Shown here piece by piece: positions 21,887 through 34,651 of a stretch of 44,110 nucleotides of DNA. The notes below the pieces were generated by a model. It was not told the DNA's origin. It ran no database searches and saw only the letters and a program-made list of their open reading frames with translations. The translations under genes and the position numbers were made by a program. Every line of letters starts with the position of its first letter. Position 1 is the first letter of the stretch. The stretch lies in NCBI GenBank assembly GCA_937898665.1, contig CALEIY010000147.1:1-44110 (forward strand), given 5' to 3'. The DNA is from Candidatus Bathyarchaeota archaeon (lineage in GTDB: Archaea; Thermoproteota; Bathyarchaeia; TCS64; B23).

Positions 21887-22501
21887 TTAAAGCTTTCTCA
21901 GTTTACCTTCAAAGACCGCTATGACGACCCAATCTCTCAAATTCTCGTCTGGGGGCATGGTAATTGGCTTTAGGCCGGAGCTCCTGAGAAGGCTTAGGAA
22001 TCTCTCCCTGCTGAAGGACTTCTTCAATGCCGTTATGATTAGCTTCCCCCCATCCTTTGAGACCCTAACCATCTCCCCCACGGCTTTAAGTGGGTTTGGG
22101 GTGTTGTTGATGAGGGTTATGGCGAAGATATATCGATAGACGCCGTCTCTGAAGGGGAGGTTCTCGGCGTCCCCGAGGATGAGATGTTTCCCCCTCAACC
22201 CCTTTCGGCGGGCTGTGGAGATGAGGGAGGATGAGAAGTCGAGGCCTACAGCCTCCACATTAAGCCGCTCCAGGAGGAGGCCCGTTCCGCAGCCGTTGTC
22301 GAGGGCTATGCCCTCGATACACTCTAGATGTGATAGGAAGCTCTCATACTTCTCCTCCTGCTCCCCCTTGTATAGGGCCTCATAGAGGCCTCCGCCCATG
22401 CTGTTGAAGGCCTCCATGATACGCCTCTTCTCCTCGAACCCCCTCTTCGCCTCAAAATTCTGAGACAAAGAGGCGGGGATAACCATGTCTAAACCCTTCA
22501 A
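21887..22501 (-). CDS. Class I SAM-dependent methyltransferase
   Basis: ALDNGCGTGLLLERL motif I, AVGLDFSSSLI, GDAENLPFRDGVYRYIF. Confidence 0.87.
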   Translation of the reverse strand: MKGLDMVIPASLSQNFEAKRGFEEKRRIMEAFNSMGGGLYEALYKGEQEEKYESFLSHLECIEGIALDNGCGTGLLLERLNVEAVGLDFSSSLISTARRKGLRGKHLILGDAENLPFRDGVYRYIFAITLINNTPNPLKAVGEMVRVSKDGGKLIITALKKSFSRERFLSLLRSSGLKPITMPPDENLRDWVVIAVFEGKLRKL

Positions 22502-22526
22502 CCGATTACCTGAAGGCTGGAAACCG

Positions 22527-22533
22527 TTTTAAA
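22527..22533. promoter_or_regulatory. Central TATA element shared by divergent methyltransferase and ilvD genes
   Basis: TTTTAAA, 29 nt and 28 nt from start codons 22501 (minus) and 22558 (plus). Confidence 0.5.
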
Positions 22534-22557
22534 CTCTTATCCTCACCTCTAAGAAAC

Positions 22558-24240
22558 ATGAGCAGCCCCAGATGGAGGAGTAGCAGAGTCCTAGATGGCC
22601 TCAGCCGAGGCATCCATAGATCGCTGCTAAAGGGGGTTGGCCTCACCGACGAGGAGCTCAGGAGACCCCTCATCGCCATCGTCAACTCCTGGAACGAGAT
22701 CGTCCCAGGGCATTTCCACCTGAAGCTGCTGGCGGAGATGGTGAAGAGGGGCGTCCTCGAGGCTGGTGGGACCCCGCTGGAGTTCAATACCATCGCAGTC
22801 TGCGACGGCATCGCCATGGGGCATGAGGGTATGCGTATGTCCCTGCCCAGCAGGGAGATCATCGCCGACTCGATAGAGGTGATGATAGAGGCCCACGGCT
22901 TCGACGCCATGGTCTGCATCACTACCTGCGACAAGATAGACCCTGGGATGATGATGGCTGCCGCGAGGCTTGATATACCCACCATCTTCTGCCTCGGCGG
23001 CCCAATGGAGCCAGGCTATCCCAGGTGGGGTAGGTTTAAGGGATGCTCCATCACGGTTCAGAATCTCATGGAGGCTGAGAGCCTCGTCAGAGGCGGGAAG
23101 ATGACCCTAGAGGAGTTTAGGTATCTGGAGGACATCTGCTGTGGTGGCCCAGGGGCCTGCGGAGGGATGTTCACGGCAAACTCGATGCAGTGCCTCATAG
23201 AGGCCATCGGCATGGCCCTCCCCTACATGGCGACGGCGCCATCTATGAGCGCTCAGCGCTTCAGATTGGCCGTTGAGACGGGTAGACGCATCATGGAGCT
23301 CCTGAGGGAGGATGTGAGGCCGAGCGACATCATGACGGAGGAGGCTTTCAGAAATGCCATAGCTGTGGATATGGCCCTCGGAGGCTCGACGAATACGGTG
23401 CTACATCTACCCGCCATAGCCCATGAGTTGGGCATAGAGCTAAGCCTAGACCTCTTCGATGAGATAAGCCGTAGGACTCCTCATCTCTGCAACATGGCTC
23501 CAGCCGGCCCCTATAAGATTAGGGATCTCCACCTCGCGGGTGGAATCCCAGCGGTGATGAGGGAGCTGGGAGAACTCATCGACGGCAGCTGCCTCACCGT
23601 CTCGGGTATGAAGGTTTCGGAGATCACGGCCAAAGCCCAGGTCTGGGATAGGGAGGTGATCAGGCCGAGGAGCGACCCGGTTCACAGGGAGGGGGGCATC
23701 GCCATCCTCTATGGAAGCCTCGCCCCCGACGGCTGCGTCATAAAGGTCGCTGCTCTCCCAAGGGAGATGTGGAGGTTTGAAGGCTCGGCGAGGGTCTTCA
23801 ATCGAGAGGAGGAGGCCGTTGAGGCGATTAGGGGAGGGGGCATCAAGGAGGGGGATTTCATCATCATAAGGTATGAAGGCCCTAAGGGTGGGCCTGGGAT
23901 GAGGGAGATGTTGACGGCCACCGCCGCCCTGGTTGGTTCCGGCCTCGATAGGTCTGTGGCCCTCGCCACGGATGGACGCTTCTCGGGGGCGACTAGGGGG
24001 CCTTGCATCGGTCATATATCCCCTGAGGCCGCTGAGGGAGGCCCCATAGCCCTGGTGGAAGATGGAGATCAGATAATCCTAGACGTTGAGAGGCGGAGGC
24101 TTGACCTAATGGTCTCGGAGGGGGAGCTGGAGAGGCGTCGTCGACGTTGGACTCCACCTGAGCCTAGGGTTCGGAGGGGTTATCTGGCTCGATACTCCAG
24201 GCTCGTCTCCTCGGCAAATCGGGGGGCGGTGATGCCCTAA
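22558..24240 (+). CDS. ilvD: Dihydroxy-acid dehydratase
   Basis: SWNEIVPGHFHL, CDKIDPGMMMAAARLDIPT, CCGGPGACGGMFTANSMQCLIEAIGMALP, DGRFSGATRGPCIGHISPEAAEGGPIAL. Confidence 0.97.
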   Translation: MSSPRWRSSRVLDGLSRGIHRSLLKGVGLTDEELRRPLIAIVNSWNEIVPGHFHLKLLAEMVKRGVLEAGGTPLEFNTIAVCDGIAMGHEGMRMSLPSREIIADSIEVMIEAHGFDAMVCITTCDKIDPGMMMAAARLDIPTIFCLGGPMEPGYPRWGRFKGCSITVQNLMEAESLVRGGKMTLEEFRYLEDICCGGPGACGGMFTANSMQCLIEAIGMALPYMATAPSMSAQRFRLAVETGRRIMELLREDVRPSDIMTEEAFRNAIAVDMALGGSTNTVLHLPAIAHELGIELSLDLFDEISRRTPHLCNMAPAGPYKIRDLHLAGGIPAVMRELGELIDGSCLTVSGMKVSEITAKAQVWDREVIRPRSDPVHREGGIAILYGSLAPDGCVIKVAALPREMWRFEGSARVFNREEEAVEAIRGGGIKEGDFIIIRYEGPKGGPGMREMLTATAALVGSGLDRSVALATDGRFSGATRGPCIGHISPEAAEGGPIALVEDGDQIILDVERRRLDLMVSEGELERRRRRWTPPEPRVRRGYLARYSRLVSSANRGAVMP

Positions 24241-25841: not shown

Positions 25842-26633
25842 GTGGGGAGTAGGGTTTTGGAGTTGTCTCCAGCTGTGGGTGGGAGGGCCTTAGCTGCCCT
25901 TAGGGGTCTGGGCTTCACGGAGTATGAGGCCTCAGCCTACATCGCCCTCCTACAGCATGGAGGCCTGACGGCTTTGGAACTCAGCGAGAAGGCCTCGATT
26001 CCCTACTCCAAGGTTTATGGGGTTTTGGAGTCTCTGAGGAGGAGGGGTTGGATCGAGGTTGGTGGTGGGAGGCCGAGGGTATATTACCCAAAGTCTCCCC
26101 TCGAGGCCCTGAGGGTTGAGCGGATTAGGAGGGAGAGGAGCTTCGAGGAGCATAGGAGCGTCATCCTCGAGGAGCTTCAACCAATCTATGAGGGTAGGGG
26201 CCTGAGGGAGCGCCCCGAGGTCTGGATCATCAGGGGCCTAGGGAACATCCTCTCCAGCCTACGGAGGATGGTGGAGGAGGCGAGGAGGGAGCTGATGATC
26301 GCCCTCCCAGCGGTGGATGAGGAGCTCCTGATGCCGCTCTCAACTCCCCTCAGCCTGGCGAGGAGTAGAGGTGTGGGGATGCTCCTCCTGACGACGATGG
26401 AGGTTGCCTCAAAGCTTGGAGATTATCTCCATCACTTCGATGAGGTTAGGGTTAGAGATGAGATGTTCGGCGGCGGAATCATAGCCGATGGAGCTGAGAC
26501 GCTGCTTATACTCGATGCCACCCCAGGTGGACGCCTCGCCATCGCCTCAGATCATAAGGGGTTGACAAACATAGCGAAGATATACTTCAACCACCTTTGG
26601 AGAACGGCGAAGCCCCTGAAACTTGGACAATAA
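25842..26633 (+). CDS. TrmB-family transcriptional regulator
   Basis: LRGLGFTEYEASAYIALLQHGGLTALELSEKASIPYSKVYGVLESLRRRGWIEV; C-terminal TrmB-like domain; GTG start of track lies only ~8 nt after a TATA-like CTTTAAAA so true start may be TTG 25857/25863. Confidence 0.88.
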   Translation: MGSRVLELSPAVGGRALAALRGLGFTEYEASAYIALLQHGGLTALELSEKASIPYSKVYGVLESLRRRGWIEVGGGRPRVYYPKSPLEALRVERIRRERSFEEHRSVILEELQPIYEGRGLRERPEVWIIRGLGNILSSLRRMVEEARRELMIALPAVDEELLMPLSTPLSLARSRGVGMLLLTTMEVASKLGDYLHHFDEVRVRDEMFGGGIIADGAETLLILDATPGGRLAIASDHKGLTNIAKIYFNHLWRTAKPLKLGQ

Positions 26634-26747
26634 ATCTATCCATCAACCCCCTAAGGCATCTGCTTGGAGGATGATTATGGATGGGGATTCTATCCAAAAG
26701 GGCTGAGACCTTAAAAATCCTTCCAGGAGGAAGCTAGGGAGATCTCG

Positions 26748-26784
26748 GAGGCTTCATGAATTAAGGGGTTTCATGGATTTGGAT
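26748..26784 (+). repeat. 37-nt dispersed direct repeat, copy 1
   Basis: GAGGCTTCATGAATTAAGGGGTTTCATGGATTTGGAT; 34/37 identical to copy 2. Confidence 0.85.
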
Positions 26785-27501
26785 ATATTTTCTATCCCTC
26801 CCTTGATCTTCGAAGAGCCGCTCCGCGATCTCTCTTCCCCTCTCGGTTAACCTGAACTCCCTTTGCTCTATGCCGAGAAGTCTCGATATTCGGCTGAGGA
26901 TTCCCCCAGCCTCTCTAGCCTCCACGATCCCCAGCTCCTTGATACATCTATTTATCGTCTCCTCCACCTCCTCCCTCTCTGGGTTTACCTGTCTCAGGAG
27001 GTCTCGTAGATTCATCCAGCCATCTTTGAGGTGGAGGGCCTTCAATATGCGGAGGGTGAGGGAGAGCTTCAATATTCTCTGTGCCTCCTCCCCATTGAAT
27101 TGGGTTAGGGTGGGTGTGGGTCTCTCCTCGATTAGGAGGCTGATCCTCTCCGCGATCCTCTCTCCAAGGGGTGTTAGCCTCCAGGTTAGGTAGGTGTATC
27201 TCCCCCGATAGTCCTTCCTCGCGGGTCTTCGCCTCTCCCCCCGTTCTATTAGGCCAGCCTTCAGTAGGCCCTTAAGCCAGGCGTTTATCTCCCTCTTATC
27301 CAGCTCTATCCCCCTTCTATCCAACTCCTCCTGAATCTCCAGCGTTGTTAGATATGGATACTGTCTATTCTCCAAGAAGATCCTGTATATGGCCCTCGCC
27401 ATCCGACTTCTCAGCGGCCTTAGATGAACTTCGAAGAGTCTGTCGAAGAGCTTCTCATCGAGGTGATGGCGCTCCATGTTAGATTTTATTGATTTTGCCA
27501 T
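26761..27501 (-). CDS. Uncharacterised protein with two winged-helix-like halves (putative regulator)
   Basis: Halves each contain wHTH-like helices followed by 'LT.LGERIAERI' / 'LTERGREIAERLF' wing patterns; ATG at 27501 preferred to TTG 27516. Confidence 0.6.
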   Translation of the reverse strand: MAKSIKSNMERHHLDEKLFDRLFEVHLRPLRSRMARAIYRIFLENRQYPYLTTLEIQEELDRRGIELDKREINAWLKGLLKAGLIERGERRRPARKDYRGRYTYLTWRLTPLGERIAERISLLIEERPTPTLTQFNGEEAQRILKLSLTLRILKALHLKDGWMNLRDLLRQVNPEREEVEETINRCIKELGIVEAREAGGILSRISRLLGIEQREFRLTERGREIAERLFEDQGRDRKYIQIHETP

Positions 27502-27507
27502 GGATAC

Positions 27508-27532
27508 AATATTCAAAAAATTTCTGAATATT
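27508..27532. promoter_or_regulatory. Inverted repeat at promoter of the double-wHTH gene
   Basis: AATATTCA-N9-TGAATATT; distal arm overlaps TAATATT ~27 nt upstream of ATG 27501. Confidence 0.5.
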
Positions 27533-33025: not shown

Positions 33026-33766
33026 CTATCTAAAGTCGGCGGTGGTGACGATGTTTATCCAGGGCGCATTCATCTTCTCATCCAAGAGCCTAAGATGATC
33101 CAGGGCGCCTGAGAGGACGAAGACTCCATGTCCAGGGAACAGCCTATCAGGCTGGAGCTCCACCATCCTTTTAATCGACCTCTTCCACTCCTCCAAGTCA
33201 CATCCAGGGCCGTTTATCCACCCCAATCTGCCCTGAGCCGAGGCCGTATCGCCTGTGAATAGGTCTAGGGTGTCACCCTCCCTCAGTAGCAGCGAAACGC
33301 CTCCAGGTGTGTGACCTGGCGTGTGGACGACCTCGACTTCGACCTCCCCGACCTCCAGCTTCTCGCCGCCCCTCAGCCTCACATCGACCTCGACCCCCTC
33401 GAATTCAAGGCCTCTAGCCTTAGCCATCTCGTAGAGGGTTAGGGGGCCGAGCCGCTCGATCTCCCCAGCCTCAGCCTCATGGGCGGCGACGCTACACCCC
33501 GTCTCACGCTTAATGCCTCCAGCTCCACCTATGTGATCAAAATGGCAGTGGGTGAGGATTAGAAGCTCAATGTCCCCTGGGTTGAGGCCCACCTCCCTAA
33601 TATTCCTTAGAACCCGTTTGACGTCTCCTCCCCCACCCGCATCGATGAGGGCGAGGGCGTCGCCGCCATCTATGAGATATATGTTACAGTCCCCGGAGTC
33701 CGAGAGGCCGTAGGCTCCTCCTCCCACGAGGTAAACCCTCTCCGTGAGCCTTAAGGCGGACATCAC
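33026..33766 (-). CDS. MBL-fold metallo-hydrolase
   Basis: LTHCHFDHIGGAGG, HTPGHTPGGVSLLL, FTGDTA, PGHG motifs. Confidence 0.92.
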   Translation of the reverse strand: MMSALRLTERVYLVGGGAYGLSDSGDCNIYLIDGGDALALIDAGGGGDVKRVLRNIREVGLNPGDIELLILTHCHFDHIGGAGGIKRETGCSVAAHEAEAGEIERLGPLTLYEMAKARGLEFEGVEVDVRLRGGEKLEVGEVEVEVVHTPGHTPGGVSLLLREGDTLDLFTGDTASAQGRLGWINGPGCDLEEWKRSIKRMVELQPDRLFPGHGVFVLSGALDHLRLLDEKMNAPWINIVTTADFR

Positions 33767-33831
33767 CTGATAATCTCCAACAGGGGATTTATCTCTTCTT
33801 CGCCCCTGGAGGCAGGATGGATAGAGGTTTT

Positions 33832-34008
33832 AACCCTTCGAAGGGTTCGAGCGCTCGAACCCCCATCTACACGAAGCCTAAAATTGACATCTCCATGTAA
33901 CTCGAATCGCCTAAGCCCCTAGGCTTCGATCCCGATTCGATGTGAATCCTAGAGGCTTCTTGAAATATGGGGTTTCATGGATTTGGATGGAGTTCCTGGC
34001 CGTGTAGA
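33832..34008. other. Inverted-repeat-dense intergenic element (candidate structured RNA or small mobile/regulatory element)
   Basis: Overlapping perfect palindromes AACCCTTCGAAGGGTT (33832-33847) and GGGTTCGAGCGCTCGAACCC (33843-33862); CGAAGCCTA/TAGGCTTCG; TCGAATCG/CGATTCGA; outer TCTACACG/CGTGTAGA. Confidence 0.6.
33952..33988 (+). repeat. 37-nt dispersed direct repeat, copy 2
   Basis: GAGGCTTCTTGAAATATGGGGTTTCATGGATTTGGAT; 34/37 identical to copy 1. Confidence 0.85.
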
Positions 34009-34017
34009 AAAAGGGTG

Positions 34018-34194
34018 TTAGCGCTTCTCCATAGCCTCCTGGAATCTCTTAGCCATCTCCGGATAGTGCTTCTCCATGAACTCCTCCATCTTATCTGGAT
34101 GCTCCACGCTCACATGCCACCTTATACCTCCAGGGCTGACGGAGTCCCAGTCGCAGTAGGGGCAGCGATACCTCTCCATCTCTATCTTCGCCAT
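34018..34194 (-). CDS. Small C2H2-type zinc-finger-like protein
   Basis: CPYCDWDSVSPGGIRWHVSVEH; start MAKIEM at 34194 preceded by GAGGTGG (SD-like). Confidence 0.75.
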   Translation of the reverse strand: MAKIEMERYRCPYCDWDSVSPGGIRWHVSVEHPDKMEEFMEKHYPEMAKRFQEAMEKR

Positions 34195-34255
34195 CGAACC
34201 ACCTCTCAGAGATTGGGAGAAGACCTTATTTTTCAATATCGCTTCGGGGGGCGCC

Positions 34256-34279
34256 TTCGTCTCAGAAATCTGAGACGAA
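34256..34279. promoter_or_regulatory. Perfect inverted repeat between two divergent genes (candidate operator)
   Basis: TTCGTCTCAGA-AA-TCTGAGACGAA, 11-bp arms. Confidence 0.55.
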
Positions 34280-34324: not shown

Positions 34325-34651
34325 GTGCATCCCTTGGGGGAGAGGGAGGAGACCAAGGTTATGTGGATAACCTGCCCCGAGTGCGGGGCGAAGCTAGGCA
34401 TAATCATCTCCGTCGGGGGGGTCAGGCCCTCGGAGGCTAAGGCCATAACCATTGATGAGATAAGGGAGCGCCTCTCCTCAATCGAGGTGGATCCCTCCAT
34501 CCTCGAGTTCACACAGGAGGGAGACCTCATAGTCGTCACGCCGAGGAAATTCCTAGGGGAGCTTTGGGGTAAGATCAACGACGTTATGAAGAGCCTCGGC
34601 GGCGTCTGGGTGAGGGAGGGGAAGGAGAGCCGCTGGGAGATAAGGATCTGA
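34325..34651 (+). CDS. Small protein with single CPECG knuckle, uncharacterised
   Basis: GTG start ~28 nt downstream of TTTATTA; WITCPECGAKLGIIISVGG. Confidence 0.6.
   Translation: MHPLGEREETKVMWITCPECGAKLGIIISVGGVRPSEAKAITIDEIRERLSSIEVDPSILEFTQEGDLIVVTPRKFLGELWGKINDVMKSLGGVWVREGKESRWEIRI

Follow-up and report, generated by a model that had tools for sequence, protein, structure and literature searches.

Introduction

On its own promoter, Ss-LrpB occupies a set of helically aligned, imperfect palindromes positioned at regular distances, and the bound dimers wrap the DNA (PMC2995911). For archaeal activators of this kind, a binding site immediately precedes the BRE (PMC2995911). Repeated sites are likewise characteristic of the replication origins of archaea (ORB/DUE; Sulfolobus oriC3 with WhiP), in this case arranged around an AT-rich stretch, with a winged-helix gene adjoining (PMC12141716).

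The subject of this report is an intergenic region from a Bathyarchaeota MAG, contained within a stretch of 44,110 nucleotides hereafter referred to as the window. The region lies between two minus strand genes, one encoding a 59-aa zinc-finger-like protein (ZnF, 34018-34197) and the other a metallo-beta-lactamase-fold protein (MBL, 33026-33766). The Bathyarchaeia, an abundant and uncultured group, are poorly understood with respect to gene control and chromosome biology. In an earlier, sequence-only reading, the region was noted for its dense symmetries, with a structured RNA, a MITE-like relic, and a protein-binding array all left as options. On the basis of sequence comparisons across the order, we believe that it is probably one of several copies of a composite DNA operator/promoter element that acts in cis and to which a protein would bind. 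No description of this element was found in open-access papers.

Results

A module of ~190 bp between the ZnF and MBL genes

Synteny of the ZnF-MBL gene pair extends across much of the order, and the spacer is mostly 250-300 nt in length. Spacers were aligned on the minus strand, first 13 and then 19 of them. They have in common a nearly gap-free core of ~190 bp, and the flanks on either side are unalignable. Judging from the alignment of the 19 orthologous spacers and from model matches, the local copy is a worn version of a module common to a Bathyarchaeia order. It is referred to here as type A, and it extends from 34004 down to 33818 on the minus strand.

When read 5' to 3' on the minus strand, the module is composed of an inverted repeat (IR1), a fixed block, an interior that is specific to each copy, and a second occurrence of the same repeat (IR2). 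The consensus for the repeat is TGGACA-N7-TGTCCA, and the fixed block has the form TGAARGT...TATAAGGC. In the window, IR1 is worn (CGGCCAGGAACTCCATCCA, 33984-34002) and is followed by the conserved block ATGAAACCCCATATTTCAAGAAGCC (consensus TTGAARGTAYATNTTNTATAAGGC, 33954-33978), the sequence of which is BRE/TATA-like and possibly serves as a promoter. The second repeat, also worn (GGGTTAAAACCTCTATCCA, 33818-33836), is positioned 166 bp from IR1. A putative TATA-like box of the MBL gene, GTTAAAAC, is found at 33827-33834. The type A interior contains four TCGA-centered sites. Sites 1 and 2, as identified in the spacer alignment, both read ATCGAA (33936-33941 and 33925-33930, respectively) and are 11 bp apart. 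Sites 3 and 4 together form a 20-bp palindrome, GGGTTCGAGCGCTCGAACCC (33843-33862), which reads TTCGA-N4-TCGA in relatives. In addition, a small inverted repeat, TTACATGGAGATGTCAA (consensus TTRCAT...GTAA), was located by inspection at 33884-33900. All of these features are on the minus strand, except for the palindrome, which is strand-neutral.

All eight arms of the symmetries described in the sequence-only reading are present at the positions it gave. They include a strand-neutral 16-bp palindrome, AACCCTTCGAAGGGTT (33832-33847), which overlaps both IR2 and the MBL TATA-like box and has GGGTT in common with the 20-bp palindrome, and the arm pairs CGAAGCCTA/TAGGCTTCG, TCGAATCG/CGATTCGA, and TCTACACG/CGTGTAGA. 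The 20-bp palindrome is unique at its length in the window, where 0.05 would be expected by chance, and the window holds six perfect palindromes of at least 16 bp versus 1.35 expected. Both palindromes are intact in the sister genome, G001, and imperfect in other genera. Among the aligned genomes, the window and its sister are alone in having the 16-bp palindrome and in having a perfect 20-bp palindrome. The mutually exclusive, interleaved hairpins that had been proposed as a switch are not conserved. Neither is the proposed 143-nt closed unit; the true unit is the module described above. The 37-nt repeat, on the other hand, is genuine, with 92% identity and an E-value of 1.8e-8 within its own genome, and is part of the module: it consists of the fixed block, which forms its core, and part of IR1. 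As had been surmised, no convincing gene covers the core, and a search of the window for a tRNA gene found none.

A perfect inverted repeat with 11-nt arms, TTCGTCTCAGA-AA-TCTGAGACGAA, is observed at 34256-34279 in the divergent intergenic region between the ZnF gene and the gene at 34325-34651. It is a likely operator in its own right.

Additional copies of the module

Copies were searched for with a 51-52-nt model comprising IR1 and the block (R1, then R3), and the genome-wide statements that follow are based on such model searches and include MAGs, which are incomplete. A clear gap in E-values separates the module matches from chance matches. The module is present in 25 of the 32 genomes of the order, usually in two to four copies each, and is absent from the remaining seven. 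A search for other genomic copies had been recommended in the sequence-only reading, and it revealed both a second copy in the window and a third elsewhere in its own genome. The second, type B, is positioned at 26624-26800 on the minus strand, where it overlaps the 3' end of a gene for a tandem winged-helix protein and includes the first copy of the 37-nt repeat. It contains three inverted repeats on that strand, namely IR1 (GGGATAGAAAATATATCCA, 26780-26798), a middle repeat (TGGATAGAATCCCCATCCA, 26678-26696), and IR2 (TGGATAGATTTATTGTCCA, 26624-26642). The third (L310, G000:C58:9363-9413) is GC-rich and lies by PIN-like and AbrB-like ORFs.

Copy B adjoins the tandem winged-helix gene, copy C has IlvD and a methyltransferase as its flanking genes, with an LSm-like gene close by, copy D falls between CofE-like and Mtd-like genes, and further copies adjoin FEN1-like or PIN-like genes; beyond the Pfam and NCBIfam results, these neighbors were named from a reading of their sequences. 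Copy C has been lost from the window genome, since the methyltransferase/IlvD intergenic region (22501-22558) is just 57 bp in length. In the closed genome G018, three copies are found within 12 kb and a fourth is located 0.74 Mb away. Recognizable three-repeat copies are also observed in two genomes belonging to other families of the class. A third match in those families, in G164, falls inside an ABC-transporter gene and was taken as chance. The full-length type A model identifies one full-length locus per genome, with G006 adding a partial one at a contig end.

The interiors of copies within one genome display a mean identity of 46%. Concerted evolution of the blocks was considered, and no clear general effect emerged (identity of 0.66 within genomes versus 0.63 between them). 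In G006 (L211, positions 2928 and 14503), copies A and B differ in their interiors but have identical 51-nt 5' blocks, which reflects either a recent gene conversion event or a strong constraint on both copies. A genome-wide regulon built on the inverted repeat alone was rejected: in ten genomes, the counts of the exactly spaced pattern were near those of the control, except in two.

Spacing of the inverted repeats

Of 58 copies, 93% have an over-threshold IR2 at the position expected, as compared to 20% of shuffled interiors. In the majority of copies, IR1 and IR2 are 164-166 bp apart, regardless of the interior and with unrelated loci included. Minor classes are observed at 152-156 and 172-177 bp, and one copy is at 192 bp. 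The separation between the middle repeat and IR2 is 53-54 bp in all 12 of the copies counted. The module thus has one palindrome repeated at constrained distances, as is the case in a multi-site operator, and the spacing is kept while the interiors diverge. Given that the copies are presumably related by descent, the constant spacing mainly shows that length, rather than sequence, has been held. A periodicity near 10.5 bp yields a p value of 3e-4 over 16 locus classes and of 0.14 when the classes are collapsed, and because of the latter value helical quantization is suggestive only.

Folding and covariation

Folding on both strands had been proposed as a check on the RNA interpretation. The segment from 33825 to 34015 indeed folds better than its dinucleotide shuffles, with z-scores of -3.4 and -3.6 for the two strands, but the 195-nt fold of the sister is like those of shuffled sequences (z of +0.31 and -0.58). 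The sister differs at 9 positions in 251 nt (96% identity), and its substitutions affect all three long-range pairings. One pair is changed on both sides, and three are changed on one side only, giving G-U or A-C depending upon the strand that is read. Mean z-scores for the two strands are -1.26/-1.62 for type A, -1.55/-1.79 for type B, and -0.49/-0.77 for type C. The suggested Rfam search gave no match at the gathering threshold in the window and only a chance-level match in 10 related loci. RNAalifold returned 10 pairs with an energy of -5.6.

Within the repeats, IR1 is 74% paired and IR2 is 80% paired, with departures that are about equally divided between G-U and A-C (8:10 and 6:8, respectively). 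The type A helix formed by sites 2 and 3 behaves differently: it is 90% paired, displays an A:U/U:A switch, and shows 13 G-U versus 2 A-C departures. This covariation is not explained by DNA binding, and much of it may represent a single evolutionary event. A helix between sites 1 and 4 was also considered, and by inspection it shows no covariation. In light of these comparisons, a conserved RNA fold for the module is not supported. Because the fold, Rfam, and inverted repeat results stand against the one covarying helix, a DNA element is favored and a transcript from type A is left as a possibility; to that extent only does the earlier suggestion of a structured RNA survive. In a single genome, marked symmetry together with favorable folding can stem from DNA operators and not RNA.

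Independence from neighboring genes

G004 and G008 have lost both the MBL gene and the ZnF gene and still retain type A. At a given locus, the orientation of types B and C differs among genera, and several copies are positioned between convergent genes. The element is therefore not the leader of a neighboring gene. An MBL leader or riboswitch, specifically, was rejected in view of G004 and G008 and of three genomes in which the element is unchanged within spacers of ~670-1070 bp. Some copies have no downstream gene to control, which counts against the operator/promoter reading.

In genus g2 (L206 and L207), the MBL, ZnF, and winged-helix genes are missing from an otherwise conserved neighborhood, and the elements remain. 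About 400-800 bp of extra sequence, possibly gene remnants, lies between ZnF and an unchanged type A element in L034, L037, and L047.

A candidate binding protein

The gene beside the type B copy (26761-27516, minus strand) encodes a protein of 251 aa, which AF2 predicts, with a pLDDT of 81.8, to fold as two winged helices in one chain. The best Foldseek match is SarS, with a TM-score of 0.27 that is weak overall, followed by MarR-like proteins. The protein matches no Pfam family, and its only NCBIfam matches, to Lrs14/Sta1, are sub-threshold. Neither Pfam, NCBIfam, nor Foldseek gave an Lrp match. The gene occurs in 21 of the 32 genomes, and all 21 carry the element; seven genomes have neither. 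Four genomes contain the element with no detected winged-helix gene, and three of these (G004, G008, and G028) belong to one genus. Such co-occurrence is weak evidence, given the physical linkage of the gene to copy B and shared ancestry. Taken with the structural matches, it makes the tandem winged-helix protein the leading candidate for the binder of the element, a lead rather than proof.

Discussion

Of the options put forward in the sequence-only reading, the protein-binding array is the one favored by the data: the module is present at several loci, and one inverted repeat brackets its unrelated interiors with a fixed spacing. In the mechanism envisioned, a DNA-binding protein that recognizes TGGACA-N7-TGTCCA would bind to IR1 and IR2 and, in some copies, to the middle repeat as well. 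The bound sites, whose separation is fixed, would probably share one face of the helix, and a wrapped or looped complex could form over the AT-rich, promoter-like block beside IR1. This complex would control transcription starting at the block and, in type A, would also act on the following gene's promoter, with which IR2 overlaps. For this role, the leading candidate is the product of the tandem winged-helix gene adjoining type B.

A rather unlikely alternative is that the module is a small, autonomous ncRNA gene, with copies A to D being paralogous RNAs that have different interiors. IR1 and the block would then constitute a regulated promoter, a transcript of ~110-130 nt would start downstream of TATAAGGC, and IR2 would help to end it. 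The near gap-free conservation of length, the autonomy of a unit that flips whole, the T-runs that follow some copies, and the covariation of the site 2:3 helix through G-U rather than A-C intermediates are all in keeping with such a gene, which would define a lineage-specific family of small RNAs. The T-runs are inconsistent, however, and the site 2:3 switch may have arisen just once in the tree. Folding is weak and strand-symmetric, falling near zero for type C, the interiors of B and C are hardly conserved, and Rfam provides no match.

It is very unlikely that the copies mark a chromosome-maintenance locus, such as a secondary replication origin or a partition site, for which the winged-helix protein would serve as the initiator or partition protein. 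Such a function would suit the low copy number per chromosome, the frequent clustering within about 15 kb, the AT-rich interiors of type B, the dedicated winged-helix gene adjoining, and the proximity of TopA, NucS, and, in genus g2, a FEN1-like gene. In the closed genome G018, however, orc1/cdc6 is 0.69 Mb away, and the GC skew, as sampled from 20 stretches of this one genome, reverses its sign near 0.8-1.0 Mb and 2.1 Mb and not at the cluster at 1.36 Mb. A replication origin is thus not supported by either the orc1/cdc6 position or the skew. The distant fourth copy in G018 and the seven genomes lacking any copy also argue against it. Highly improbable is the suggestion of MITE-like relics, that is, of a non-autonomous mobile element with inverted-repeat ends. 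The sequence-only reading was correct that the sequence recurs elsewhere, and the several loci, both orientations, patchy presence, and copies beyond the order in two other families would fit a mobile element. Yet there are few copies per genome and they are not near-identical, the termini and spacing are conserved around unrelated interiors, type A has been kept at one locus across genera, and the wHTH-IlvD intergenic region within genus g10 provided no clean empty site (one empty site compared). Plasmids gave no match, and the viral pattern matches, all of which lack the rest of the element including the TATAAGGC part, are attributed to chance; a viral or plasmid origin was rejected.

It is conceivable, albeit quite unlikely, that the copies belong to an undescribed class of nucleoprotein sites, dispersed in the genomes of Bathyarchaeia and recognized by a tandem winged-helix protein dedicated to them, and that they act in chromosome organization, segregation, or replication control. 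Each chromosome would usually carry two to four such modular elements, with a pair or triplet of inverted repeats at fixed spacing beside a fixed block. That they are kept without their neighbors, are orientation-independent, and cluster locally would set them apart from ordinary gene operators. A sharply defined, repeated element together with a named candidate binder offers a direct biochemical handle in the form of a 190-bp DNA.

With respect to known systems, the element resembles the structured ncRNAs of Rfam in being intergenic, in its conserved length, and in the one covarying helix of type A, but it differs from them in having no family match, no conserved fold, and no strand bias in folding. 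Like archaeal origins, it has repeated sites, an AT-rich stretch, and an adjoining winged-helix gene. Unlike them, it lacks a nearby orc1/cdc6 gene or skew change and is present in several copies, some with GC-rich interiors. The candidate protein, modeled as two winged helices in one chain, is reminiscent of tandem winged-helix regulators of the SarS/MarR type, although the overall match is weak and there is no Pfam family in common. From Lrp-type operator arrays the element is distinguished by a different repeat sequence, by an end-to-end length of ~165 bp versus the ~100 bp wrapped in Lrp, by its occurrence in stand-alone copies, and by a candidate protein that is a tandem winged helix rather than an Lrp. 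Because the protein family differs, the analogy is one of working in a like manner and not of membership. By that analogy, with its several imperfect palindromes at regular spacing and one site immediately preceding a BRE/TATA-like block, the archaeal multi-site operator, as exemplified by that of Ss-LrpB, is the closest working analogue of the element.
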